From Longitalea luteola (GTDB lineage: Bacteria > Bacteroidota > Bacteroidia > Chitinophagales > Chitinophagaceae): a stretch of 64,000 nt of DNA. The notes under the pieces were generated by a model, which saw nothing but the letters and a program-made list of their open reading frames with translations, was not told where the DNA came from and ran no database searches. The translations under genes were made by a program, and so were the position numbers. The stretch is from positions 1-64,000 of the forward strand of contig NZ_JAFIQX010000010.1 in NCBI RefSeq assembly GCF_017356035.1. Direction: 5' to 3'. Of the stretch, positions 8,977-61,152 are shown piece by piece (the stretch's first letter is position 1; every line of letters begins with the position of its first letter).

Positions 8977-8991
8977 ATTTACAATGTGAAA

Positions 8992-9022
8992 GAAAAGCCA
9001 CCTTCGCGGTGGCTTTTCTATT
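8992..9022 (+). terminator. Rho-independent terminator of the FG-GAP gene
   Basis: Perfect 11-bp stem GAAAAGCCACC/GGTGGCTTTTC with loop TTCGC, 15 bases past the stop codon. Confidence 0.85.
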
Positions 9023-10429: not shown

Positions 10430-10445
10430 TGATGTGTTGGGAAGT

Positions 10446-10513
10446 TCACCATTGACCATTCACCATTGACCATTCACCATGACCATTCACCATTGACCAT
10501 TCACCATTGACCG
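10446..10513. repeat. Heptamer array TSACCNN (about 10 copies)
   Basis: Alternating TTCACCA and TTGACCA heptamers, one copy with a single-base deletion, starting 17 bases past the GH5 stop codon. It is the reverse complement of the NNGGTSA arrays at 41409, 52991 and 61084. Confidence 0.9.
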
Positions 10514-34764: not shown

Positions 34765-35775
34765 ATGAAAAAACATTGGTGTTCATTTCTTCTAATACTT
34801 GTATTGACTGGCGGCTGCCGGCATCAAACCAAACCGCTTTCATTCTATTACTGGAAAACGCAGTTCGCACTGAACAATTACGAAAAAAGCGTATTACAGG
34901 AACATGCCGTTAAATCGCTGTATGTACGGTATTTCGATGTGGATCATAAAGAGGGCGACGCGCAGCCGGCACCGGTTTCGCCGGTACAACTGGATTCAAC
35001 TGTACGGTCATACAGGATCATTCCGGTAATTTTTATCAGGAACAGAACTTTTGAACAACTGCCCTCGTCGGCTATTACAACACTTGCCCGCAATGTGTTC
35101 GGCCTGGTGACCCAAATCAATCAATCGCAACAATTAATTACCCGCGAAATACAATTCGATTGCGACTGGACAGAACGCACGCGGGACAGGTTCTTCGAAT
35201 TCATCAGGCAATACAGGGCCATTGCCCAGCAAACGGTCTCTGCCACCATCCGGCTGCACCAGGTAAAATACAAGGAAAGAACGGGCATTCCGCCAGTTGA
35301 CTATGGGGTACTGATGTATTACAATATGGGCGCTATTACCGGCGATAACAATAATTCCATTTACGAAAAAGCGGTGGCCAACCGGTACAACAGTTACATC
35401 AGATCGTATCCTTTGCCAATGGATATTGCCCTTCCTGTATTCTCCTGGGCGCTTAAAGTTCGTGACGGAAAAGTGGTGGAGCTGCTGAATAAAATCAATA
35501 TCAGCCAGTTTGAAAATGATTCTAATTTTACAAACGTAAACACCAACTGGTATAAGGCAAAACACGGCTGTTTTAAGGCAGGTTACTACTTCAAGGAAAA
35601 TGATGTCATTAAACCTGAACATGTACCGGCCGAAGACCTGCTCGATATAACAACACAGGTCAACCAGCATACGAACCATCGTATAGGCAAGTTGATCTTT
35701 TATGATCTGGATAGCACTAACCTCGTTCAATATGAAAAAGATATTCTCAAAAAAGTACTTCGTAACACTGACTAG
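34765..35775 (+). CDS. Hypothetical lipoprotein, first of a pair
   Basis: A 336-residue lipoprotein (signal peptide LLILVLTGGC, lipobox Cys18). The mature protein shows FYYWKTQFALNNYEKSVLQEHAVKSLYVRYFDVD, VIFIRNRTFEQL and FDCDWTERTRDRFFEFIRQ. The pattern suggests a TIM-barrel-like glycosidase-related fold (a strand ending in CDWTE), but I cannot name the family with confidence. It overlaps the start of the next lipoprotein gene by 44 bases, so the two are made together. Such pairs recur in Bacteroidota with no assigned role. Confidence 0.7.
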   Translation: MKKHWCSFLLILVLTGGCRHQTKPLSFYYWKTQFALNNYEKSVLQEHAVKSLYVRYFDVDHKEGDAQPAPVSPVQLDSTVRSYRIIPVIFIRNRTFEQLPSSAITTLARNVFGLVTQINQSQQLITREIQFDCDWTERTRDRFFEFIRQYRAIAQQTVSATIRLHQVKYKERTGIPPVDYGVLMYYNMGAITGDNNNSIYEKAVANRYNSYIRSYPLPMDIALPVFSWALKVRDGKVVELLNKINISQFENDSNFTNVNTNWYKAKHGCFKAGYYFKENDVIKPEHVPAEDLLDITTQVNQHTNHRIGKLIFYDLDSTNLVQYEKDILKKVLRNTD

Positions 35776-37990
35776 TTCGTTCGCCGTTGGAACCGGTATT
35801 ATACTGGCCTGCGCAGGCGACTGGGGACCTGAATACGGTGATTCCAGCTTTACACCGGAAGCGTTCGTAAACGATGCCTACCAGCCCTTCTTCTATTCAG
35901 ATATGTTTTACTATGGCATTGGTCACGACAGGCAACACAACACCCGCTTCAATGAATCGAATATAAAGGACTGGGCAAACTACCTGGGCAACGGTACATC
36001 CAGGACCGAACTCGAATTTCTGCTCGTGAATGCCCCTGCAGAAACCATCGACAGCCTGGCCGCTTACCAGGCAGGCAGGTTAAAAACCTTGCCATTATCT
36101 GTTAGATCATTCTCTTTGTTCCGGAAAAACGATAAAAAGACGGCTGACTTTTTAAGGTACCTGGCACTGGCGAAAAAAAGCGAGGCTTTTGCCGTTAACA
36201 ACCTGGAATATTCATGGGATTACGAATCGAAGAAAAAGCCCGTAAATATTAACACCGCACAGTTGAATAAAGAATTACTGCAGGAATTTACGCAAACGAA
36301 AGACGCTTTCCTAAAACAACGGTACTGGTTCCAGCTGGAACGTTCTTATTTCTTCAACGGTCCGGCACAAAGCGCATTGGATCTGTTTGAGAAAAATGAA
36401 GCCTCCTTCGAAAAGAATGAAATGTATTATCGAACCATGGCCTATGCAGCCGGCGCGTGTTATAAATTAAAGAACTTTCCTAAAGGATCCTACTATTACA
36501 GCAAGGTATACGACGGTTGCGATGCGCTGAAAACAGTGGCTCACTGGAGCTTTGGCCCCAAAGAAGAAAATGAATGGAAAGCTACCCTGGCGCTATGCGC
36601 CAATAACGACGAGAAGGCAACGCTGTGGCAAATGCTTGGCACCTTCTATACCGATGAAAAACGGGCCATACAGGAGATCTACAACCTGAACCCGCACAGT
36701 GAAAAACTGAACCTGCTACTAACAAGGGCCGTAAATAAACAGGAACAAAAGTTCAGCACCTGGGATAAAGACTACACCAGTAAAAGTCTGCAATTCAAAA
36801 AAGACACCAGCACCAGCGAACTGTTAGCCCTGGTTACCCGCATTGCGCAAGCCGGTAATACGCACCAACCCTATATGTGGCATATAGCAGCCGGCTATTT
36901 AAACATGCTGAACGGTAATTTTCAACAGGCTGCTACCGCTTACACTGCAGCCGGGAAAAAATTGCCCAAAGAAGAACTGGTGCAATATCAATTAAGGTTA
37001 CTGAAACTCGTGAATACCGTTGCAAGCACTCCCAAGGCAGACAGTAAACTGGAAAATAAAGTGCTGGCAGACCTGAACTGGTTGCAAAAACTAAAAACCC
37101 CGGATGGAACATTCCGGTATAACACCGCCTTTCAATGGATAAAAAGCACGCTGGCCGACCGGTACATTAAACAAAAAGAATTCCTAAAAGCCGTTTGCTT
37201 CAACAATTACCTGTCATTCTATACCAACGACGGCAACATAGAGGCCATGAAAAGCTTTTTGAACAAAGCGAATAAAACGCCTTATGAAACGCTCTGCGCC
37301 AGCTTTTACCCGCTTACAACCAACGACCTCAATGAATACCAGGCTATCCGGTTAACGTATGACGACCAACTGGATGAAGCGATCGCTAAAATGGAAACCG
37401 TACCTGCCAGCGCTCCATTACCCGGCAACCCCTTCAATGGACGCCTGCAGGACTGCCACGACTGCGACCATGAGGCGCCGCAAAAAATAAAATACACCAA
37501 GCTCGACCTGCTTAAAAAGATGAAAGAAATGGAAGAGAAGATCAAAACAAACAGCGAAGTGTATAGCAATGCCATGCTGGTTGCAAATGCGTTTTACAAT
37601 CTCACGCATTATGGCAATGCCCGTGCCTTCTATGAAAACAATATAGTTGGTTCATCGCATTATTCCCCTTTTGCCATAGATTCTGTTTTCAGGGATTTCC
37701 TTATTGATATGAAACTGGCCACCAAATATTACACCCTGGCTTTGAATGCGGCCAAAACAGCCGAACAAAAAGCAAAATGTCATTACATGCTGGCCAAATG
37801 TGAACGCAATCAATGGTACAACCAGACGCTTTACAATAACCCCAAATACCAATACGGCGATCATGCCAGGCTTCCTGATTTCTTACCATGGAACGGCTTC
37901 AAAGCATTGAAACAGCAATACGCCAATACGCAATTTTATAAAGAAGCGATCAGAGAGTGTGGTTATTTAAGTACGTATGCGCAGCAATAG
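35732..37990 (+). CDS. Large helical-repeat lipoprotein, second of the pair
   Basis: A 752-residue lipoprotein (signal peptide with lipobox LACAG). The mature N terminus, CAGDWGPEYGDSSFTPEAF followed by PFFYSDMFYYG, is a recurrent opening in a Bacteroidota-specific family. The rest is mostly helical with TPR-like spacing (AAGYLNMLNGNFQQAATAYTAAG, YTLALNAAKTAEQKAKCHYML). A CHDCDHE cluster in the C-terminal third could bind metal. The ATG at 35732 is chosen because it gives the signal peptide; a frame start 30 bases earlier does not. Function unknown; coupled to the preceding lipoprotein. Its last codons form one arm of a terminator hairpin. Confidence 0.75.
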   Translation: MKKIFSKKYFVTLTSSFAVGTGIILACAGDWGPEYGDSSFTPEAFVNDAYQPFFYSDMFYYGIGHDRQHNTRFNESNIKDWANYLGNGTSRTELEFLLVNAPAETIDSLAAYQAGRLKTLPLSVRSFSLFRKNDKKTADFLRYLALAKKSEAFAVNNLEYSWDYESKKKPVNINTAQLNKELLQEFTQTKDAFLKQRYWFQLERSYFFNGPAQSALDLFEKNEASFEKNEMYYRTMAYAAGACYKLKNFPKGSYYYSKVYDGCDALKTVAHWSFGPKEENEWKATLALCANNDEKATLWQMLGTFYTDEKRAIQEIYNLNPHSEKLNLLLTRAVNKQEQKFSTWDKDYTSKSLQFKKDTSTSELLALVTRIAQAGNTHQPYMWHIAAGYLNMLNGNFQQAATAYTAAGKKLPKEELVQYQLRLLKLVNTVASTPKADSKLENKVLADLNWLQKLKTPDGTFRYNTAFQWIKSTLADRYIKQKEFLKAVCFNNYLSFYTNDGNIEAMKSFLNKANKTPYETLCASFYPLTTNDLNEYQAIRLTYDDQLDEAIAKMETVPASAPLPGNPFNGRLQDCHDCDHEAPQKIKYTKLDLLKKMKEMEEKIKTNSEVYSNAMLVANAFYNLTHYGNARAFYENNIVGSSHYSPFAIDSVFRDFLIDMKLATKYYTLALNAAKTAEQKAKCHYMLAKCERNQWYNQTLYNNPKYQYGDHARLPDFLPWNGFKALKQQYANTQFYKEAIRECGYLSTYAQQ

Positions 37991-38014
37991 CGCATACGTA
38001 CCTCATTATTTTTT
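37971..38014. terminator. Terminator hairpin overlapping the ends of two convergent genes
   Basis: Perfect 12-bp stem GTACGTATGCGC/GCGCATACGTAC with a 7-base loop. The left arm encodes the last residues of the lipoprotein and the loop holds most of its stop codon. The T-rich run ATTATTTTTT after it overlaps the stop of the VWA gene. Confidence 0.85.
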
Positions 38015-39148
38015 CAACACCATATCTTCTTTTGCTGCCCACAGGCCAATGTCCTGTTTGCTTAGGGCGGCAGCCATCAGATCGGGAAATTTGTCAGGTG
38101 TACAGGCAAAGACCGGAATGCCCAGATTGGAAAAGAATTGGGCGTTGTTATGATCATAAAAAGGTGCGCCTTCGTCATTCAGGGCCAGTAATACTACTAC
38201 CTGCACACCGGCCGCTACCAGCTCTACAGCCCGCTTACGCATTTTATCTTCATTGCCGCCTTCGTACAGGTCGGTGATCAATACCAATACGGTATCATTG
38301 GGTTTGGTAATGATCTGCTGGCAATAGGTGAGCGCCAGATTGATGTCGGTGCCGCCGCCTAATTGTACGCCAAACAATAATTCCACCGGGTCGGTCAATT
38401 CTTCTGTAAGATCCGTTACCGCCGTATCGAATACCACCATCTTGGTTTTAATTGCCGGCATAGAGGCCATCACCGAACCAAAGATGCCGGAGTATACAAC
38501 GGATGTGCCCATCGACCCGCTCTGGTCGATGCAAAGCACTACGTCTTTTAAGGACGTGCGTTTTCTTCCATACCCGATCCTCGTTTCCGGAATGATCGTT
38601 TTATATTCGGGCTGGTAATGCTTCAGGTTCTTTTGAATGGTAGCATGCCAGTTGATCTCGTTATGCCGTGGCCGGCGGTTGCGCGCACTTCGGTTCAAAC
38701 TACCCATGATAGCCTGCTGTGTTGGCTGCGACAGTTTTCGCAATAACTCATCTACCACTTTCCGAACGACCATTCGGGCGGTGTCTTTCGTTTTATCAGG
38801 AATTACTTTACTTAACGTCATTAAGGTGGCTACCAGGTGCACATCGGGTTCTACGTTCTGCAGCATTTCCTTTTCAAACAGCATCTGGGTAAGGTTCAAC
38901 CGGTTCAATGCATCCTGCTGCATTACCTGTACAATGGAAGAAGGGAAAAAAGTGCGGATGTCGCCTAACCAGCGGGCAACATTTGGCGAAGAAGGACCCA
39001 ACCCACCCTGCCGGTTGCTGTCATACAAAGCTTCCAGCGTTTTATCCATTTGCAGTTCCCGCTCATTCAATGATACACCGGTGCCATCGTTTTCCTGTCC
39101 ACCCAGGATGAGCCGCCACTTGCGGATATGTTGTTCATTGTTGATCAT
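38006..39148 (-). CDS. VWA domain protein of the MoxR/DUF5682 operon
   Basis: A 380-residue protein with a C-terminal von Willebrand A domain. The metal-ion adhesion site is complete: DQSGS (Asp208, Ser210, Ser212), GGGTD (Thr267) and LITDLYEGG (Asp293). Residues 1-195 are a helical region with RKVVDELLRKLS and a basic stretch (RSARNRRPRHNE). VWA proteins pair with MoxR AAA+ ATPases as substrate or metal-centre adaptors, and a MoxR gene lies two genes upstream. The start overlaps the DUF5682 gene by 14 bases; it is the last gene of the five-gene operon. Confidence 0.9.
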   Translation of the reverse strand: MINNEQHIRKWRLILGGQENDGTGVSLNERELQMDKTLEALYDSNRQGGLGPSSPNVARWLGDIRTFFPSSIVQVMQQDALNRLNLTQMLFEKEMLQNVEPDVHLVATLMTLSKVIPDKTKDTARMVVRKVVDELLRKLSQPTQQAIMGSLNRSARNRRPRHNEINWHATIQKNLKHYQPEYKTIIPETRIGYGRKRTSLKDVVLCIDQSGSMGTSVVYSGIFGSVMASMPAIKTKMVVFDTAVTDLTEELTDPVELLFGVQLGGGTDINLALTYCQQIITKPNDTVLVLITDLYEGGNEDKMRKRAVELVAAGVQVVVLLALNDEGAPFYDHNNAQFFSNLGIPVFACTPDKFPDLMAAALSKQDIGLWAAKEDMVLKK

Positions 39149-41408
39149 TGCTTAAATTTTTTATGCCCAATAATTGCATGATAACCGGAATGCCCTGTTT
39201 GGCGCGCTCTTCGTCTACACCGGTTTCAGCCACCGCCCTGCTGGCAGTACCACTTCCACCGGCTTTTGCTTTTTCGCCCAGCTTTTTTCTTTCGGGGGAA
39301 GAAAAGCCGGAAAAAGTTCTGCGAAGCAAAGGCAATACCCGCGTAAAGGTTTCTTCATCCAATACATTCACCCAGTTATTAACGAGGTTCCACAGGTCGT
39401 TATCAATTAACAAAATGGTGCCGCTGCCTTTCAAAAATCCTTCCAGCCAGGCAGCTGCTTTATCTGGTGGCGTAGCGGCCGACATGGCATAATGAAACAC
39501 CCGTACCAGCTCATCGCCTTCCAGTAATTTATAGTCGGCCAGCAGCCGGGTGGCATAACCGGCGATCATGGGAGAAGTATTGCCTGCTGCTGCTATGGCC
39601 TGCAGGGTTTGCTGCCATTGACCGGTAATATCGGCCTGCTGCAAAACGTTTACGGCATCGTTCAGTTTAAAGAACAGCTCCAACAGTTTTTGGGCGGCCT
39701 CATCTGTTACAGCCGTGCAGGCGGCAGGCAGGCTTACACAAATACGGGTGAGCATGCTGTTTACAATACCTGAGACGAGGTCGGCATCTGTCTTCCGTAC
39801 ATTGCCATAACGGGTTACCTGCACCAGTCCCGGCACCACTTCCATTAATTGTATTACATCACCACTGGCGGCTGCCAGGTTATTGATGCATCGGATGCAC
39901 ACTTCCACCGCCCGGTGTAATTCGGCAGGAATGGTATGCTCCAGCAAACCGGTAACCGAACTTAACGTATCGGCTTCAGTGGCTTTGGCGATCACAAATT
40001 GCTGTGCAGCTTCCTCCACGGTATTTCCCCAGTTGCCTTTTTCAATGATATTGATCGACAATTCCGGATTCCATTGTAACCGCCACAACTCCTTGAAGGT
40101 ACCCTTTCCCGATACGTCATGCCGTTCGCCCCATTGTATATCGAGCAGTTGCAGGCGGTGCAGGAAGATGCTGCGCTCCAGGTCGTTCTCCTTACGCAGA
40201 TCAAGCGTATAATCTTTAAAGTCGGCTGTTGCCGGCAACCGCAGCCGCTTCTGTAATTTTTCTATATCCAGCTGTAATGGCGGTTTGGGTATCTCCTGCG
40301 GCACTTCCCCGATCCGGTTGCTTACGATCAGTTCATCATTGATCAACTGCATTAGAATACTTTCGCCATTGCAAAGCACGGTCTGGGTTGCTTCGTTCAG
40401 CTCTTCCAGTCCGGCCTTGTATAAATTGCGCATGCTTGCCAGCGCTTCGGCGAGGCGCACCGCTTCTATAACATGCGCTACAGATGTGTCCATTTGTTTT
40501 GTGCGGAACAGTTGCGCCACTTTCGCCATCCAGCGGGTGCCGTCATCATTGGGGTGATGCCAGATATGGTCGTACCAGCCGGGCGATCCAATGCCGGCGC
40601 CATAACCGCTATAATAACTCAGGCGGCTATACGTCCAGGGTATCCAGGTGCATTCCACCTTCACTTTCGGCAAACCTTTCAGCAGGTCATTATCATCTTT
40701 TGGTTTGGGCATCGATACCAGCGCCGGGGCATGCCAGGCGCCACAGATCACGGCTATGTTCCGGAACATTTCTTTTTCTGCCTGCCGGATGGTCTTACGC
40801 ATCCAGGCTTCACGCAACTGTTCAATACGGTCTTCTTTTTGAGGGAAGGTTTCGCGCAAGGCCTGCATGGCCTCGGTTACGGCATCAAATACCTGTTCGT
40901 TATTACGCCGGTGTTCGAACATGTGCTCCCACCATTTCTCTCCATCGTGGTAACCGGCTGCTTCTGCGAGAAAAGAGATCGGGTCTTTCCGGATCGCTGC
41001 TGCTTCTGCTACTTCATTGCTGCGTAATGCATAATTATTGATCGAAGGTTCGATAGAACCCGGGCGTTCAGCAACCTGCCTGCTTTCATTTTCCAAAGCA
41101 ATACTATGGCCCATGGGCAGGTCCATGAACCGCACATGAATATTGTTGCGGCGGGCATATGCGATCGCCTGCCATTCGGGTGAGAATTCAGCAAACGGGT
41201 AAAAGGATGAACGTTGCGGATCATCCGGCTGATACACCAGGATAGCTACCGGCGGTTTTAATCCAGCGTGGTTTACCCATTGTAATAAAGGATCTGCCTC
41301 CGGCGGCCCTTCAACCAGTACAATGTCCGGCTTTAAGGCTTCCAGGAAATCCTTTACATTTTTTGCTGAACCGGGACCATGGTGGCGTATGCCTAATATA
41401 TGGATCAT
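39135..41408 (-). CDS. DUF5682 protein, TraB/TIKI-like N-terminal domain
   Basis: A 757-residue protein of the DUF5682 family. The first about 235 residues resemble the TIKI/TraB/EreA superfamily of putative hydrolases: GIRHHGPGS (Gly6, His9), DIVLVEGPPEADP (Glu33, Glu37) and ICGAWHAPAL (Gly223, His226) occupy the places of its conserved GxxH, Glu and GxxH motifs. Residues about 330-757 are helical repeats of unknown role. No signal peptide, so cytosolic. It is the fourth gene of the SWIM-DUF5691-MoxR-DUF5682-VWA operon. A heptamer repeat abuts its start codon, so no normal ribosome-binding site is visible. The hydrolase idea is inference. Confidence 0.88.
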   Translation of the reverse strand: MIHILGIRHHGPGSAKNVKDFLEALKPDIVLVEGPPEADPLLQWVNHAGLKPPVAILVYQPDDPQRSSFYPFAEFSPEWQAIAYARRNNIHVRFMDLPMGHSIALENESRQVAERPGSIEPSINNYALRSNEVAEAAAIRKDPISFLAEAAGYHDGEKWWEHMFEHRRNNEQVFDAVTEAMQALRETFPQKEDRIEQLREAWMRKTIRQAEKEMFRNIAVICGAWHAPALVSMPKPKDDNDLLKGLPKVKVECTWIPWTYSRLSYYSGYGAGIGSPGWYDHIWHHPNDDGTRWMAKVAQLFRTKQMDTSVAHVIEAVRLAEALASMRNLYKAGLEELNEATQTVLCNGESILMQLINDELIVSNRIGEVPQEIPKPPLQLDIEKLQKRLRLPATADFKDYTLDLRKENDLERSIFLHRLQLLDIQWGERHDVSGKGTFKELWRLQWNPELSINIIEKGNWGNTVEEAAQQFVIAKATEADTLSSVTGLLEHTIPAELHRAVEVCIRCINNLAAASGDVIQLMEVVPGLVQVTRYGNVRKTDADLVSGIVNSMLTRICVSLPAACTAVTDEAAQKLLELFFKLNDAVNVLQQADITGQWQQTLQAIAAAGNTSPMIAGYATRLLADYKLLEGDELVRVFHYAMSAATPPDKAAAWLEGFLKGSGTILLIDNDLWNLVNNWVNVLDEETFTRVLPLLRRTFSGFSSPERKKLGEKAKAGGSGTASRAVAETGVDEERAKQGIPVIMQLLGIKNLSNDQQ

Positions 41409-41452
41409 GGTGAATGGTCAATGGTGAATGGTGAATGGTCAATGGTCAATGG
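41409..41452. repeat. Heptamer array NNGGTSA (6 copies) inside an operon
   Basis: Units ATGGTGA and ATGGTCA fill half of the 85-base gap between the MoxR and DUF5682 genes and touch the DUF5682 start codon. Same family as the arrays at 10446, 52991 and 61084. Confidence 0.9.
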
Positions 41453-41493
41453 GGCCTGACTAAACTTTAGATGCCCTGTTAATTCAGCCTGGC

Positions 41494-42573
41494 TTACATC
41501 AGATCTCTGCAAGCCCGGTAAATGTCTTTCCATTCTTCCCTCGGCTTAACTACCGTTTCCAGGTATTCCTGCCATACCAGCTTATCCTGCACCGGGTCTT
41601 TAACGACAGAACCGATAATACCGGCAGCCAGGTCAGCCGCTTTCAACTGGCCATCGCCGAAATAAGCAGCCATTGCCAGCCCATTGTTCACAACCGAAAT
41701 GGCTTCTGCCGTGCTAAGCGTTCCGCTGGGCACTTTGATCTTTGTTTTTCCATCGATGGTGACGCCGCTGCGCAGTTCGCGGAAAATGGTTACGATCCGG
41801 CGGATCTCCTGCAGCGCCGGCGGTTCGGCCGGTAATTCCATGATCTTTTCAAAACTTTCAACCCGGCGTTTTACAATATCAATTTCTTCATCCATGGAAT
41901 CAGGCACGGGCAATATAACGGTATTGAACCGCCGCTTCAAGGCACTTGACAATTCATTCACGCCTTTGTCGCGGTTATTGGCAGTGGCAATTACATTGAA
42001 TCCTTTTACGGCCTGCACCTCGGTATTCAGTTCAGGAACCGGCAATGTTTTTTCTGAGAGGATAGTGATCAGCGTGTCCTGCACATCGGCGCCAATACGG
42101 GTAAGCTCTTCTATACGGGCTATTTTCCCTTCTTTCATCGATCGCATAACGGGCGTTTCGACCAATGCTTTTTCGGAAGGACCTTCTGCCAGCAGGCGGG
42201 CATAGTTCCACCCGTACCGGATGGCTTCTTCGCTGGTACCGGCAGTTCCCTGTACGATCATGGTAGAATCGCCGCAAACGGCTGCCGACAAATGTTCACT
42301 CACCCAGCTTTTGGCAGTGCCCGGCAATCCGTACAACAACAAAGCGCGGTCGGTGGTTAAGGTAGCCACGGCAATTTCCATCAGTCTTTTGTTGCCAATG
42401 TATTTGGGCGATACTTCAAAACCATTTTTCAGTTTGCCGCCGGTAAGGTAGGTTACCACCGCCTGGGGCGTTAATTTCCAATTAGTCGGCCGTTTTCCTG
42501 TATCCTGCTTTTGCAGTTCTTCCAGCTCCTGGGCGTATAATTGTTCGGCGTGCTGACGTAATAAGGTTGACAT
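41494..42573 (-). CDS. MoxR-type AAA+ ATPase
   Basis: A 359-residue AAA+ ATPase of the MoxR/helix-2-insert clade, likely a chaperone-like remodeller working with the VWA protein of the same operon. Walker A is GLPGTAKS (residues 82-89), sensor 1 is VIATANNRDKG, and the arginine finger region is SALKRRFNTVILP. The Walker B segment reads IARIEELTR, so the usual Asp-Glu pair is Glu-Glu; the catalytic second Glu is kept, and ATP hydrolysis may be altered or merely tolerate the change. It lies 14 bases after DUF5691. Confidence 0.92.
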   Translation of the reverse strand: MSTLLRQHAEQLYAQELEELQKQDTGKRPTNWKLTPQAVVTYLTGGKLKNGFEVSPKYIGNKRLMEIAVATLTTDRALLLYGLPGTAKSWVSEHLSAAVCGDSTMIVQGTAGTSEEAIRYGWNYARLLAEGPSEKALVETPVMRSMKEGKIARIEELTRIGADVQDTLITILSEKTLPVPELNTEVQAVKGFNVIATANNRDKGVNELSSALKRRFNTVILPVPDSMDEEIDIVKRRVESFEKIMELPAEPPALQEIRRIVTIFRELRSGVTIDGKTKIKVPSGTLSTAEAISVVNNGLAMAAYFGDGQLKAADLAAGIIGSVVKDPVQDKLVWQEYLETVVKPREEWKDIYRACRDLM

Positions 42574-42587
42574 AATGATATGATTAT

Positions 42588-44042
42588 TTAGTCGTTGAAG
42601 GATTGTATGGTTTGCTTTTTCAGTTCCAGGAGCCGGGTGATATAGTCGCTGGTATTGCCCCAGGTGGCTCGCGCGTAATCTTCAGGCGGCGCACATTTCT
42701 CCAGTTCACCAACAATGCCCACTGGTATGCAATGAATATAGCGGCTGTAAAACGACCGGTTATACTGGTATACGCTTTTGGCGGTATGAATAAATATGGC
42801 CCGCGTGAGATCAACGCTCCAGGTATCTTCGCGTTTAATGGCATGCTCAATGATGTTCTCTGCAAACTGGTCAATGAACTTTATACTGTAGAACTCCTGC
42901 TCTTTGACCGGTAACAGCGGAATAATGTCAATATAAAAGACCTGGCTGTTCTGCATGAAAGCAGTTGCCCAACGCTGATCTTTGAAGGCAACTACTGCCT
43001 GCACCATTGCCGGCAAAAACTTTTTGTTGGTCGCATCTTTTTGCATCGACCGGATGATAACATCGGGTGTACTGTTCAACCGGTTCTCCCAGAACGCAGG
43101 TGGCACCGATTGCATCAGCTGCATAACGATGAATTCTTCATCGGTAATTTCTTTGTTATTGCTTAGTTTGTCAATGCCGGTCTTAAAAATGGCTTCATCG
43201 AGCCCGGCGGGTAATTTTATCTGAAGTCCTTTTTTTCCGATGGTAACCGTTTTTTGCAGCACCTGCTGGTATTGTTGCACCACAGGTGATTCGGGTATCT
43301 GCTTTAACAGCCACAGCGCCACATCCCTTACCTTTTTGCTTTTCTCTTTCGACAGGCTTTCGAGGAACTCAATATCGCCCTCATTGATATTATTAGCCAG
43401 TATCAACAGGAACTCAACTTTCGTGGCAGCGTCTTCCTGTGCCCAGGTTTGCAACATCCATTCCCTGGCCGTGGATGCATTTACCTTGCGCAAATGCTCC
43501 AGTACGCCTTTACGCTGCTCTACCGAACCTGTTTGCCATAATTCTTCATCGGTGGTGGCCGTAGAAAAATTCCATTCGGGATTGAAGCGCGCCAGCCACT
43601 CGCCCCGTTTACCACAACAGGCTACCACCAGGTTCTGCAGCTTTTTTTGAGGAATGCCGACATTCAGCAATTCCGGAACAAACGCTGGCGTTACGATCTG
43701 GCCCTTTGCTTCACATAATTGCAACCAGAACTGCAAAAGGGAAATGCTCTCCGAATCGAAAATATCTTTCAGCGTTTGTAAGGCCAATGCAGAGCAGTAG
43801 CGCTTTTCTTCTGCATCCGCTTTTGTAATGGTCACTCCTTCTTTTTTTAAGGGCATTACCCCACACTGGCGGTAATTAAATACCAGCGCGGCTGTTTGTA
43901 AAAACTGTTCTTCTTTATCGTTTACGGTTTGCTGTAGGTGTGTAGCCGCCGCCGCCAGTTCAGCCGGCAACTCACTAACAGCAAGCGTTCTTTTATCGGT
44001 GCCCAGTAAAGCCGTATTTATTATTTGATCCCAGGTTTGCAT
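42588..44042 (-). CDS. DUF5691 helical-repeat protein
   Basis: A 484-residue protein of the DUF5691 family. The opening WDQIINTALLGTDKRTLAV is the family signature. The remainder is alpha-helical with HEAT-like repeats (KVEFLLILANNINEGDIEFLES, KKVRDVALWLLKQIPES), suggesting a scaffold. No catalytic motif or membrane segment is visible. It lies 28 bases downstream of the SWIM gene and 14 bases upstream of the MoxR gene, in an operon seen with these same families in other phyla. Function unknown. Confidence 0.88.
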   Translation of the reverse strand: MQTWDQIINTALLGTDKRTLAVSELPAELAAAATHLQQTVNDKEEQFLQTAALVFNYRQCGVMPLKKEGVTITKADAEEKRYCSALALQTLKDIFDSESISLLQFWLQLCEAKGQIVTPAFVPELLNVGIPQKKLQNLVVACCGKRGEWLARFNPEWNFSTATTDEELWQTGSVEQRKGVLEHLRKVNASTAREWMLQTWAQEDAATKVEFLLILANNINEGDIEFLESLSKEKSKKVRDVALWLLKQIPESPVVQQYQQVLQKTVTIGKKGLQIKLPAGLDEAIFKTGIDKLSNNKEITDEEFIVMQLMQSVPPAFWENRLNSTPDVIIRSMQKDATNKKFLPAMVQAVVAFKDQRWATAFMQNSQVFYIDIIPLLPVKEQEFYSIKFIDQFAENIIEHAIKREDTWSVDLTRAIFIHTAKSVYQYNRSFYSRYIHCIPVGIVGELEKCAPPEDYARATWGNTSDYITRLLELKKQTIQSFND

Positions 44043-44070
44043 ATACCTGTTTTAATTAGAATATCCTTTG

Positions 44071-45372
44071 TTATAGAATCTTATATTCCTGCTGGTACCA
44101 CACCCCAAAGGGTTCGTACACTTTTTCTTTGCCTACTACTGCCATGTTCAACGGTTCGCCACCGCTCAACGATAATAATTTCCAGATGCTCTTAAACCCG
44201 TTTTTAATATGCATCATGGCATTGTTGTTGTCCTGTAACCACCATTGCTGTTCATAATAAACCGGCCGCACCTGTTCTATGATGAAGGGCCTTTCGCCGC
44301 GGAAGGGCAATGCGGCGCTATAGGCCGTTTCAGCTTCCACGACCTGCTGCCAGTTGGCAAAGCCTTTATACTGTTGTATTCTCTCCGTGCTGATCTGTTT
44401 TTTTACAATGGCCCGCAAAGGAACAACGGATGGGTAGAAGACCAGTTCGGCCTGAAGGAAAAGGCCGGGAGTTACTGTCAGCTGCGCCCCCTGGCCGCGT
44501 ACCATGAACTGCAGCACCAGCGCATACTGATCAGTGGTTACACCGTACAACCAGTTCCTTTCAATGGTTAAATTATCTTCTTCGGTAACCTGTTTACCAA
44601 GCACCAGCCATGTATCGGTAATACCTGTTTGCTCTTTTAATTCATCCTGGTTTTGGGTGAAGCCGATCGACGTGCGAAGATCCTGTTGTAATAAGGGAGA
44701 AAGGTGTTCGCTATTCTTATAGCCAGTAGCAACGATATATAAGCGCAAGAGCTGGTCGATGAATACTGATTGCCAGCCATCGCGATAAAAGTTTATTTCG
44801 GCCATGTTCCTGAGCATACCTGCCAGTCCGGGCGCCTGGGCATCTACCATCCGCCTGGCCATATTCTCAAACCAGGCTGATCCTTTTTCAGGTATATTGA
44901 TGATGCCATTGCGAATGATGTCTTTTAACCATTGTAAAAGTTCTTCAATACCATCGCTCACTTTTTGTTCACGGGCCTGGCGGCGCTTTGCCTGTGCGGC
45001 TTCATCAACCGGTTTATCTTTTTGCGCAGCCTGCTTTTCCTGCCGTTCAGATCGTTTGCTGATCCATTCCGACACCCATGCCGGCATCTGGTTGTTGGTA
45101 AAATCATTTTTAGCACGTGCGTACAACAACAGCAGCCCTATCCCATGTTTACAGGGAAATTTGCGGCTGGGGCAACTGCATTTAAAAGCAATATTCACCA
45201 GGTCAACCTGCGCCTGATAAGGTTTACTGCCGCTGCCCTGGCATTCGCCCCAGAGCGCCAGCTCATTTACACCTTTGCTCACCCATTTGGCCGGACTCGA
45301 GAGCTCCTTCCCGGATCTTTTGGAAGATTCATCAGGTGCCAGGGCAAGCACTTGTTCTTCGGTTAATTGCAA
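44071..45372 (-). CDS. SWIM zinc-finger protein, first gene of the MoxR/DUF5682 operon
   Basis: A 433-residue protein with an N-terminal SWIM zinc finger: Cys65, Cys67, Cys74 and His76 in FKCSCPSRKFPCKHGIGLL, a module that binds DNA or proteins. The remaining 350 residues are mixed, with a charged linker (EKQAAQKDKPVDEAAQAKRR) and no recognised domain. Translation starts at a TTG codon; no upstream in-frame ATG is present. It opens the five-gene operon. The 540 bases before it hold no gene and no clear promoter. Confidence 0.88.
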   Translation of the reverse strand: MQLTEEQVLALAPDESSKRSGKELSSPAKWVSKGVNELALWGECQGSGSKPYQAQVDLVNIAFKCSCPSRKFPCKHGIGLLLLYARAKNDFTNNQMPAWVSEWISKRSERQEKQAAQKDKPVDEAAQAKRRQAREQKVSDGIEELLQWLKDIIRNGIINIPEKGSAWFENMARRMVDAQAPGLAGMLRNMAEINFYRDGWQSVFIDQLLRLYIVATGYKNSEHLSPLLQQDLRTSIGFTQNQDELKEQTGITDTWLVLGKQVTEEDNLTIERNWLYGVTTDQYALVLQFMVRGQGAQLTVTPGLFLQAELVFYPSVVPLRAIVKKQISTERIQQYKGFANWQQVVEAETAYSAALPFRGERPFIIEQVRPVYYEQQWWLQDNNNAMMHIKNGFKSIWKLLSLSGGEPLNMAVVGKEKVYEPFGVWYQQEYKIL

Positions 45373-45914
45373 GCAAAAAAGTTTTATTGTCTTTAGAATA
45401 AGATCATGGTCCGCTTTTTCTGATCCATGTAACTATAGCATCGTGCAACTGCATGCAAAGTTACCTGTCCCTGGTATCTAAAATCCTATCAGGCGATCAA
45501 AACCTTCCCTGCGGATAACATCCTGTATGTGAACCGAGTTGCATACCCCAAAATACGCTGTGATCATGAAGGCAGGAAATGTACAGAATAATTTAATTTG
45601 TCACTGTACGCCTATGGCCTGCAACATATTTCATTTATTTCACATCTGAACCTTTTAGGTAATTGCGGCTTTTTGCCGTTACTCCCTCATTAATCAACCT
45701 GCTTTTTGGAAAAGATTTCACATACACTTAATATGCTTGCAGGAGCCCCGGGTTGCAAGGGTTTTGTGGAAAAAACCTATTGCGATCACCGGTAGTTATT
45801 TTGTTACTCTTATAGAATTTGTATAACTATGATCATGGAAATTTGAAATGCCTGCGCGCACCATTTCTTTCTGTTCACTGATCAACAATTTTCATTTAAC
45901 CTAAAAACGATCCC
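45373..45914. other. Divergent intergenic region
   Basis: About 540 bases between the divergent SWIM operon and a lipoprotein gene. It should contain both promoters, but I could not place them. No repeats and no small gene with recognisable features. Confidence 0.5.
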
Positions 45915-47189
45915 ATGCGCTTACGCATTTACTGTATTGCTGCCATAGCAGCAACGACACTGCATGCCTGCATAAAACAAACACAGCCAGCCTCCCCTGA
46001 CGGTTCAGGCGCCAACAACGAAACCCGCGTTCCCATAGAAAATGTCCCGGCAACTAATGTAACAGTGACCTACACCGACGAAAGCAGCTTCGTTAACACT
46101 CTTTCATCCTATGGTTACAAAACGCCGGACCAGGTGAACCTTAACCGGGTTGGTACCAGCACGGGTTACACCGCCGTGTATGGATTCAATATTCCCAGCG
46201 ACCGCCAGGTAAAAGGTTTCAAATGGAATAGCGGCGACCAGCAGACGAATGAATGGCGCCCGCAGGGCATTACCGGATTTACGTGGGCAGGCAGGAACTT
46301 CCTGCTGATAACCTGGTATGGCGTAGGCCCGTCCAATATTCCGGGTGTAAACAACCAGCACAAAGGGGTTCGCGTTTCACTGGTTGATATTACCAGCATG
46401 AGCAATATCACCTACCGTCATATTCTGCTGGTGCAAAACAAAGCGAATATGTCGAACAGTGAATTGTACGATCCTTCCAACAGCTATGTACAACTGGCCT
46501 GCTTTGCTCCGGTAACCATGCATGCCGGGGGGGTGGCTTTTTTTGCCGGTAAACTATACGTTGTTGACACAGGGCTCGGCATCCGCGTATTCGACCTTAC
46601 CAAATTCATCTCCGCGGCGGGCGATGCTACTGAAACCCGCATTGGTAAAGAAACGGATGGCAGCCTGAAAGCATTCAACTATGCTTATATTTTACCACAG
46701 ACCGGCTATTACAAGATCACCAATGCGAAGCCATTCTCCTGCATTGAAACGGGTACAGGACTTACAGCTTCCGATATAATGCTTTGGACGGGACAGTACA
46801 TCGAATCTTCCAGCACGGTTGTGCCAAAAGTGTATGGCTTCCATTTAAATGCTACCGGACAAATTCTAACCTCTCCGGTACCTGAAGTAATTACCCCCAT
46901 AGATAATGATAACACGAATGTCAACGGTATTCAGGGTGTATATCGTGCGGGCACAAAAACCTTCATGGCCACAACAGGCAACAGCAGTTACGAAGGTTCC
47001 ACAGCCCGGCTGGTGCGGTATAACGATGGCGCTGCAGCCGGCGTACGCTATCGCTGGCCTCATGGCGCCGAAGACCTGTACCTGGAACAAAGCACTGGCT
47101 ATTTGTGGAATTTGACGGAATATGAAACAGAGAAGTACGGAACAGATAATCGTTGTGTATTTGCCGTGCGGTTATCAGACTATGATTAG
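45915..47189 (+). CDS. Secreted beta-propeller-like lipoprotein
   Basis: A 424-residue lipoprotein (signal peptide AAIAATTLHAC, lipobox Cys19). The mature part has repeated beta-rich units that each report a value (GKLYVVDTGLGIRVFDLTKF, ASDIMLWTGQYIESS, VNGIQGVYRAGTKTFMATTG), consistent with a beta-propeller, and resembles a family of uncharacterised secreted proteins known from actinomycetes and Bacteroidota. No catalytic site is recognised. It is monocistronic and ends at a strong hairpin shared with the converging Dps gene. Confidence 0.7.
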   Translation: MRLRIYCIAAIAATTLHACIKQTQPASPDGSGANNETRVPIENVPATNVTVTYTDESSFVNTLSSYGYKTPDQVNLNRVGTSTGYTAVYGFNIPSDRQVKGFKWNSGDQQTNEWRPQGITGFTWAGRNFLLITWYGVGPSNIPGVNNQHKGVRVSLVDITSMSNITYRHILLVQNKANMSNSELYDPSNSYVQLACFAPVTMHAGGVAFFAGKLYVVDTGLGIRVFDLTKFISAAGDATETRIGKETDGSLKAFNYAYILPQTGYYKITNAKPFSCIETGTGLTASDIMLWTGQYIESSSTVVPKVYGFHLNATGQILTSPVPEVITPIDNDNTNVNGIQGVYRAGTKTFMATTGNSSYEGSTARLVRYNDGAAAGVRYRWPHGAEDLYLEQSTGYLWNLTEYETEKYGTDNRCVFAVRLSDYD

Positions 47190-52990: not shown

Positions 52991-53034
52991 GTGAGTGGCG
53001 AGTGGTCAATGGCGAATGGTGAATGGTGAGTGGC
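52991..53034. repeat. Heptamer array NNGGTSA-like (about 6 copies)
   Basis: Units GTGAGTG, GCGAGTG, GTCAATG, GCGAATG, GTGAATG and GTGAGTG; a more diverged member of the family at 41409 and 61084. Confidence 0.8.
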
Positions 53035-60060: not shown

Positions 60061-61083
60061 ATGAAGCAGCTTGTATTATTCCTGAGTCTGGCCATTATGG
60101 GCAGCGCCATAACATCCGCTCAAACCGCCAATCCGCAGCAGTATAAATATGTTTTCACGGTGGCTAAAGACGGTTCGGGTGATTACAAATACATCCAGGA
60201 CGCTATTGACGCCATGCGTGTTTACCCCCTGGCGCCAATAACGCTGTATATAAAAAATGGCGTGTACAATGAAAAAATTGAACTGCCTGCCACCAATACC
60301 GATGTAACGTTTATTGGCGAAAGCGTTGATAAAACAATCATTGTGTTCAACGATTATTCTGGCCGGGGCAAACTGACCACTTTCACTTCCTATACGGCCA
60401 GGATCAGTGGCAACCGTTTCCGGGCTGAAAATATTACTTTCTCCAATTCGGCAGGTCAGGTAGGACAGGCAGTAGCGCTGTATGTAGATGCCGACCAGGC
60501 GATCTTTGTCAACTGCCGCTTCCTGGGCAACCAGGACACCATCTTTACCGGCGGTGAAACTGCAAGGCAACTGTTTGTAAACTGTTATATTGAAGGCACA
60601 ACAGATTTTATATTCGGTCCGGCCACCGCCGTTTTCCAGCACTGTGACATTCATAGCAAATCCAATTCATACATTACGGCAGCCAGTACAACACAGGGCA
60701 AGAAATTTGGGTATGTATTTATGGATTGTAAGCTAACAGCCGACAGCGGCGTGAATAAAGTGTATCTCGGGCGGCCCTGGCGCGCCCATGCCAAAACAGT
60801 ATTTATGCGTTGCACTATGGACAAACATATCGTACGCGAAGGATGGAATAACTGGGGCAACCCCGCCAATGAACAGACCACCCTCTATGCGGAATATAAA
60901 AACAGCGGTCCGGGCGCTGACAGGAGCAACCGCGTAAAATGGAGCCATCAGCTTACTGATAAGGAGGCGGCTGATTATTCGTTAAACAGCATTTTAAGTA
61001 ATGAAGGTTCGGCATTGCCGGCAAATGCCAAATGGTACCAGGAGCAGGGCACCCGCGGGTTTCAGTGGCCGGAGAAGAAGTGA
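60061..61083 (+). CDS. Pectinesterase (carbohydrate esterase family 8)
   Basis: A 340-residue secreted pectin methylesterase (signal peptide ends ITSAQ). Catalytic residues are in place: the acid Asp159 in NQDTI, the nucleophile Asp182 in TTDFIFGPA and Arg238 in LGRPWRA. It removes methyl esters from homogalacturonan so that lyases or hydrolases can act. With the hydrolase directly upstream it forms a two-gene pectin-processing operon. A heptamer array begins at the base after its stop codon. Confidence 0.93.
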   Translation: MKQLVLFLSLAIMGSAITSAQTANPQQYKYVFTVAKDGSGDYKYIQDAIDAMRVYPLAPITLYIKNGVYNEKIELPATNTDVTFIGESVDKTIIVFNDYSGRGKLTTFTSYTARISGNRFRAENITFSNSAGQVGQAVALYVDADQAIFVNCRFLGNQDTIFTGGETARQLFVNCYIEGTTDFIFGPATAVFQHCDIHSKSNSYITAASTTQGKKFGYVFMDCKLTADSGVNKVYLGRPWRAHAKTVFMRCTMDKHIVREGWNNWGNPANEQTTLYAEYKNSGPGADRSNRVKWSHQLTDKEAADYSLNSILSNEGSALPANAKWYQEQGTRGFQWPEKK

Positions 61084-61152
61084 GTGGTCAAAGGTGAATG
61101 GTCAATGGTGAATGGTCAATGGTCAATGGTGAATGGTGAGTGGTGAATGGTC
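61084..61152. repeat. Heptamer array NNGGTSA x10
   Basis: Ten contiguous units (GTGGTCA, AAGGTGA, ATGGTCA, ATGGTGA and so on) starting at the first base after the pectinesterase stop and filling most of the 82-base gap to the converging LytTR gene. Confidence 0.92.

Follow-up and report, generated by a model that had tools for sequence, protein, structure and literature searches.

The locus described here raises the question of what a MoxR-type AAA+ ATPase and its VWA partner might act upon when they are encoded together with a SWIM zinc-finger protein and two proteins known only as DUF families. The five genes lie on the minus strand between positions 38006 and 45372 of a 64,000-nucleotide stretch of the Longitalea luteola genome (contig NZ_JAFIQX010000010.1, positions 1 to 64,000), referred to below as the window. 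The answer that we favor, with roughly even confidence, is that they encode a cellular, non-viral remodelling machine of the YehL subfamily, in which MoxR and VWA proteins would control a DUF5682 hydrolase and the SWIM and DUF5691 proteins would serve as an adaptor, in cytoplasmic stress or quality control.

The order of transcription is SWIM, DUF5691, MoxR, DUF5682, VWA. The first gene (44071–45372) encodes a 433-residue SWIM protein (Pfam PF04434, 22.1 bits against a cut-off of 19.6), and the second (42588–44042) a DUF5691 protein of 484 residues (PF18944, 326.6 bits, E = 5.9e-97). These two are probable partners, because they are fused in a single open reading frame (ORF) at three other loci (L009, L050 and L088); an alignment of the fusion (A3) was dropped because MAFFT placed DUF5691 sequences on the SWIM half. 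The third gene (41494–42573) encodes the ATPase, with 359 residues (AAA_5, PF07728, 129.1 bits, E = 1.5e-37), which takes the name MoxR from its relationship to YehL, as judged by 38% identity and by a tree. The fourth (39135–41408) encodes a DUF5682 protein of 757 residues, a homologue of YehM (PF18934, 936.1 bits, E = 2e-281), and the fifth (38006–39148) a CoxE-type VWA protein of 380 residues, homologous to YehP (VWA_CoxE, PF05762, 158.4 bits, E = 2.3e-46). ORFs and Pfam matches agree with the arrangement given in the preliminary description of this DNA, namely five same-strand genes that are separated by 28, 14 and 85 bases at three junctions and overlap by 14 bases at the fourth, between the DUF5682 and VWA reading frames (41408–39135 and 39148–38006). 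The HEAT-like scaffold that it saw in the DUF5691 protein was not recovered; at E 0.01 Pfam gives DUF5691 alone. The SWIM gene begins with an apparent TTG codon at position 45372, and a comparison of 10 closely related sequences, that of the window among them, shows this codon in every one. As the start of the first gene of an operon, TTG possibly leads to weak translation.

Key motifs of three of the proteins are intact. With the window included in every count, the SWIM zinc ligands (CxC...CxH, at residues 65, 67, 74 and 76) are kept in all 59 full-length sequences; the MoxR Walker residues G82, T86 and K88 together with E155 and E156 in 69 of 69, and S89 in 67; and the VWA metal-ion-dependent adhesion site (MIDAS) residues D208, S210 and S212 in 70 of 70, with T267 in 68. 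The motif positions inspected thus bear out the assignment of the MoxR and VWA proteins to the remodeller type, and their conservation, together with that of the zinc ligands, suggests a working machine.

Linkage of the five genes proved to be widespread, as had been supposed. A scan of a genome collection gave at least 580 DUF5682 loci, and the 80 best-scoring were taken, a sample that leans to close relatives and in which L143 and L011 are apparently identical DNA (their contigs are equally long and their DUF4132 genes identical). Sufficient flank, that is, at least 5.5 kb upstream and at least 1.5 kb downstream of DUF5682, was present at 56 loci; the other 24 were excluded because their flanks were too short, apart from one whose cut-off ORF had no assigned start codon. 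All five genes, with order and strand unchanged, are found at 48 of the 56. The remaining eight comprise four with DUF5682 alone, two with MoxR, DUF5682 and VWA, one that lacks SWIM and VWA, and one that lacks SWIM. If flank size is disregarded, order and strand are identical in all 57 loci that hold the complete set, and at 41 of those 48 loci DUF5682 and VWA overlap or are separated by at most 38 bases. By record titles, these 48 belong to eight phyla: Bacteroidota, Cyanobacteriota, Chloroflexota, Planctomycetota, Verrucomicrobiota, Acidobacteriota, Pseudomonadota, and the phylum of a Mailhella metagenome-assembled genome (Desulfovibrionaceae). Beyond that scan the five genes occur in two Actinomycetota records, one Deinococcota record and two from Alphaproteobacteria, and a Fusobacterium locus has four of the five, with DUF5691 undetected. 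The closest DUF5682 relative among the matches listed is that of Niastella populi (83% identity in the best segment).

The neighbourhood search across phyla finds DUF5682 with DUF5691 in conserved order, and DUF5691 is mostly retained even where it does not adjoin DUF5682. In 10 genomes without a complete DUF5691 beside DUF5682 in the DNA read, DUF5691 was found elsewhere in eight and was absent from two; contig edges may explain some of the apparent separation. At five of nine such separated sites that were read (L184, L185, L186, L190 and L192), SWIM or MoxR adjoins DUF5691. Among 51 genomes sampled from the phylum, DUF5691 scored above the cut-off in three, with one further weak match, and these three are exactly the genomes of the 51 that have DUF5682. 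Because order is conserved and DUF5691 is retained when split, the genes cannot be called unlinked elsewhere. By these comparative criteria the five genes form one functional unit, and an ancient one.

Single additional genes occur inside some copies. They include a gene with a weak Kinase-PolyVal match in L069 (7648–8550), a cytidylyltransferase-like protein in L072 (8910–9998), a DUF6688_C protein in L084 (8759–9970), and a 203-residue protein without a match in L009 (9368–9979). In Deinococcus taeanensis (L198) a small gene of 78 codons (8762–8998) separates MoxR and DUF5682.

A familiar representative of the module is found in Escherichia coli K-12, where YehL is an AAA_5 protein, YehM a DUF5682 protein (E = 2.4e-98), YehP a VWA_CoxE protein and YehQ a SWIM protein. 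Upstream of yehLMPQ lie YehI (DUF4132) and YehF (WGR). Homology to YehL, YehM and YehP can be detected; compared with an E. coli plasmid copy (L008), the window proteins show 38% identity for MoxR, 28% over part of DUF5682 and 33% for VWA. In an unrooted tree YehL groups with the module ATPases, and the proteins across a branch with support values of 86/90 (not starred) are RavA, two MRP proteins from the same genome as the window, four GvpN and two other AAA_5 proteins. Since long branches were flagged, the tree gives this grouping moderate support. The E. coli locus differs in that its SWIM gene comes last and no DUF5691 match is found, E. coli serving as control for that search. YehQ (614 residues) has no detectable homology with the window SWIM protein beyond the zinc finger, and comparison with SWIM and DUF5691 profiles did not reveal full-length homology. 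The same second layout, with a SWIM gene of YehQ type in last place and DUF5691 undetected, is seen in Agrobacterium vitis; the SWIM proteins of the two species are 28% identical.

The module had been put forward as an uncharacterised candidate system. It is hardly a new one, as it corresponds to yehLMPQ and YehL is already listed among the MoxR subfamilies (PMC3893208; PMC11432383). On function the preliminary view stands: no published role for the gene set was found in the open-access literature searched, which omits most subscription journals. The YehL subfamily is thus prior knowledge, and the fold prediction for DUF5682, the link to DUF4132 and the breadth of linkage are new.

The nature of DUF5682 is central to the machine proposed here. 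The AlphaFold2 model of the full-length protein has a mean predicted local distance difference test (pLDDT) score of 88.0 and is mostly helical over the roughly 460 residues beyond the N-terminal domain. Because full-length Foldseek searches were dominated by helical-repeat proteins, the N-terminal domain (residues 1–292, positions 40533–41408, minus strand) was modelled separately (pLDDT 90.6; predicted template-modelling score 0.89). Against the PDB its top three matches are chains of Tetrahymena complex IV (E = 2.1e-3 to 1.5e-2, probability 0.84–0.99). In a Foldseek search of viral models (BFVD) a "TraB family protein" ranks second (probability 1.00, E = 0.015). A subunit of the TraB family is reported for Tetrahymena complex IV (PMC10060162), and we infer that the matched chains belong to it. 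No TraB structure was found among PDB sequences searched with alignment A5, and the N-domain profile gave a best E of 0.23 against the same sequences. Matches of DUF5682 to GroEL-like PDB sequences (E = 0.0035) fall within a helical part of the protein and were attributed to chance.

Conserved residues point in the same direction as the predicted fold. Among 79 aligned DUF5682 sequences, the window included, H9 and E33 are conserved in 78 and D96, R199, E200, M203, G223 and H226 in all, forming the near-invariant set HH...E...R-E-x-x-M...GAWH. This His...Glu...(Arg)...His order is shared with the superfamily of TraB/PrgY, EreA, TIKI and ChaN, and the RDxxM...H element is shared with EreA. DUF5682 has an H-to-E spacing of 24, compared with 26 in TraB, and an R-to-H spacing of 27, compared with 25 (27 in one TraB); short hhalign stretches against TraB, EreA and ChaN fall in the expected register. 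As the patterns were composed after the sequences had been viewed, the following counts are descriptive and not blind. A strict pattern of ordered GxxH, E, R and H motifs occurs in 63 of 66 DUF5682 proteins, and [RK][DEN]xxM followed after 18 to 24 residues by H in 66 of 66, as well as in 12 of 13 EreA proteins and 18 of 1,035 background ORFs. The full motif chain is present in 65 of 66 DUF5682 proteins and in 1 of the 1,035 background ORFs. The EreA pattern for the last motif was found in 0 of the 13 EreA proteins. DUF5682 departs from the superfamily in carrying the additional, mostly helical residues and in lacking a significant profile–profile match. We nevertheless regard a TraB/EreA-type fold for the N-terminal domain as quite likely. 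Members of the TIKI and EreA groups are hydrolases. DUF5682 is probably a hydrolase as well, with H9, E33, R199 and H226 as candidate catalytic residues, and the hydrolase-like motifs first noticed in the raw sequence are in keeping with this prediction.

The preliminary description took the five genes as the whole system and so missed a sixth component. A DUF4132 gene (952–1012 residues if complete) lies on the same strand within the module or immediately next to it at 14 of the 80 loci, after VWA, between DUF5682 and VWA, or ahead of DUF5682; the second most frequent abutting cluster is found at three. In A. vitis the gene is inside the operon, in the order MoxR, DUF5682, DUF4132, VWA, SWIM. 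DUF4132 was not found beside 47 of the 57 complete loci, and a search of the window's genome showed it to be absent. Among eight other genomes of the genus (L143 to L150), it is present in L143 and L145, appears as a tandem double match in L149 and as a short remnant in L150, and is undetected in L144, L146, L147 and L148; its site is between VWA and a convergent gene of 762 residues. As its presence varies within one genus, this recurrent component is optional and has been lost or gained locally.

How might these proteins work together? In NorQD a finger of the VWA protein sits within the AAA+ pore and a twisting action is supported; this use of the pore is, its authors presume, a general one (PMC13036017). 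The present proteins resemble NorQ/NorD, RavA/ViaA and other MoxR/VWA pairs, in that an AAA+ ring protein is joined by a VWA protein and the Walker and MIDAS motifs are intact. By analogy with NorQD, the VWA protein would plug the MoxR ring and couple it to DUF5682. The ring may then spend ATP on straining or opening DUF5682, pictured as a hydrolase of TraB/EreA fold borne by a helical scaffold, and thereby load it, activate it or supply it with substrate. The SWIM and DUF5691 proteins (YehQ in E. coli) would form the adaptor that recognises a cue or target, with DUF4132 as an optional additional adaptor. Identity to the window proteins within the genus (L143 to L150) is 91–97% for MoxR, 91–96% for VWA, 83–88% for DUF5682, 82–86% for SWIM and 75–88% for DUF5691; the lowest values are those of DUF5691, which would fit a protein whose partner changes. 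Phage defence would be a less likely setting than cytoplasmic stress or quality control.

Several observations weigh against this proposal. The finger in the pore and all contacts between the components are argued from analogy. The word "stress" has a thin basis in the DdrO and LexA links of DUF4132/WGR proteins (PMC8533742). None of the Foldseek matches was as good as E 0.001, the best of them have modest template-modelling scores (the top PDB chain 0.37 by query length, the viral TraB protein 0.44 by target length), and hhalign is not significant, with probabilities of 0.3% for TraB, 0.5% for EreA and 1.1% for ChaN. The [RK][DEN]xxM...H pattern is rare in TraB (1 of 20) and ChaN (2 of 9); the full chain occurs in the same numbers of TraB and ChaN proteins and in none of the 13 EreA proteins. 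Finally, distribution in the phylum is patchy (DUF5682 in 7 of 296 genomes, that of the window included), and 36 of 72,556 records in a plasmid collection match, at least nine of them longer than 2 Mb and thus chromosome-sized; both observations would fit a mobile system. Patchiness and plasmid records point to gene transfer or loss.

A bolder form of the same idea, which we consider possible but rather doubtful, is that the genes encode a switch of ancient origin, driven by ATP, in which the MoxR ring and the VWA plug open a TraB/EreA-fold DUF5682 mechanically while SWIM and DUF5691, with DUF4132/WGR where present, read nucleic acid or a damaged target. If this were true, the module would define a class of AAA+-gated hydrolases, found from E. 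coli K-12 to cyanobacteria, in which the ring remodels the enzyme and not the substrate, unlike Clp-type proteases. The gene set is that of most E. coli and of at least eight phyla, and no function for it was found in the open-access literature searched. Viewing the genes as one system and naming candidate catalytic residues make the YehL/YehM/YehP/YehQ puzzle directly testable by biochemistry in a laboratory strain.

Among the other explanations, the one that survives best is a strict chaperone for cofactor or metal insertion of the NorQD/CoxDE type, in which an unlinked client would be matured and DUF5682 would be a metal- or haem-binding helper, not a hydrolase. The CoxE type of the VWA protein, the insertion of iron by NorQD (PMC13036017) and the presence of part of the DUF5682 motif in two of nine proteins of the ChaN family (Pfam PF04187, labelled Cofac_haem_bdg) all speak for it. 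Its difficulty is the client. For the NorQ/NorD and RavA/ViaA pairs a client complex is reported, whereas here there are three further conserved proteins and no recurrent gene for a client enzyme was seen next to the module; by far its commonest neighbour, inside it or within 150 bases, is DUF4132 (14 loci). A random sample of 150 of the 375 flank proteins of the 57 complete loci, reduced to 121 by removal by hand of 29 (mostly long, short or edge ORFs), contains no Pfam family in more than four proteins. We consider this explanation unlikely.

Less probable still is a machine of the DNA-damage response: SWIM and WGR/DUF4132 proteins would bind nucleic acid, and MoxR/VWA would remodel protein–DNA complexes. 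The DUF4132 operon drA0165–drA0166 of Deinococcus radiodurans is reported to be induced upon DdrO depletion, and MolR of E. coli is described as under LexA control (PMC8533742); YehF and YehI, moreover, adjoin yehLMPQ. This evidence concerns the optional DUF4132, however, which the window's genome lacks and which was not found beside most complete loci, and footprinting by eye upstream of the SWIM gene showed no operator common to the genus.

We judge a role in anti-phage defence or biological conflict, as kin of the MoxR-vWA ternary systems, to be quite improbable, even though MoxR-vWA pairs are conflict systems elsewhere (PMC7159879), vWA-MoxR-VMAP genes occur near CRISPR loci (PMC10910872), and the patchiness and plasmid records given above, like the MadB and mad3 matches described below, would suit it. 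The ternary systems resemble the present module in that a further conserved component joins MoxR and vWA. They differ in that Pfam and NCBIfam scans of the module revealed no VMAP, iSTAND or similar third component, and no effector domain appears to be fused to VWA: Pfam finds VWA domains alone in the window protein, and its relatives, judged on size, are 370–424 residues long in the 48 complete loci, as expected for a single domain. The main text of PMC7159879 contains neither the word YehL nor the word SWIM. The only NCBIfam matches are sub-threshold ones of the ATPase to GvpN and to the MadB ATPase model, the latter far below threshold (42.5 bits, cut-off 475); a match to bpMoxR (PF20030) is likewise below its cut-off (23.5 bits against 27). 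PADLOC, applied to 10 proteins, matched MoxR alone, with two weak partial IetA hits (E = 0.0018 and 0.0053). The preliminary description named co-occurrence with known defence islands as a check. Among the 121 sampled flank proteins, mad3 alone recurs of the PADLOC families listed, 25 of the 32 that matched (three proteins, best E = 2.2e-36), and the other listed ones, among them Orf5, HEC-06, SspA, DndA, mREase_IV, chat, SspE and DrmC, match once each; these figures give no sign of strong recurrence, though they do not measure enrichment or depletion against random genes.

The genomic setting also argues against a defence role. DUF5682 is present in all 10 genomes of the genus, the window's included, and in all eight others that were read the module stands beside the same 762-residue gene, on the same side, though farther away if DUF4132 or some other DNA lies between them. 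The gene on the opposite flank (45900–47189) is found in only three of these eight. In E. coli, yehLMPQ is present at 80% query coverage or more in 5,155 of 5,426 genomes, and 5,330 of 5,332 sites are chromosomal. The module thus behaves as core within the genus and within E. coli. No relative turned up in viral contigs, which were scanned with a pattern as seed. The "conflict or stress system" first suggested is therefore weakened in its conflict half by the genus-wide and near-core distribution and by the viral and PADLOC scans, and cytoplasmic stress or quality control is left as the likeliest setting. A MoxR-DUF5682-VWA set also occurs in the one phage record, L142 (MT835988), an unverified 14-kb clone labelled "Bacteriophage sp." that is probably bacterial DNA.

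That the genes are unrelated chance neighbours, for which one might cite the optional genes and the four of 56 loci with DUF5682 alone, has a negligible probability and is refuted by the cross-phylum order, the SWIM–DUF5691 fusions and the joint presence of the genes when split.

Two further features lie close to the module. A tandem heptamer, (ACCATTS)n, at 41407–41452 on the minus strand touches the DUF5682 start codon; it is a repeat dispersed in the genome, and its position is probably incidental. Other arrays are found in the window at 10445–10512, 52996–53033 and 61080–61152, and a 27-base form of the pattern has 78 forward and 86 reverse matches in this genome, overlapping matches counted, against none for a reversed control. 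The pattern occurs in six of the 10 genomes of the genus, this one included, in very different numbers; for G335, one of the six, the control count is high as well. The 762-residue gene (35702–37990), convergent to the module, has no Pfam match at E 0.01. Its product is 60–68% identical in seven of the eight genus mates and 87% identical in L148, compared with 75–97% for the proteins of the adjoining module.

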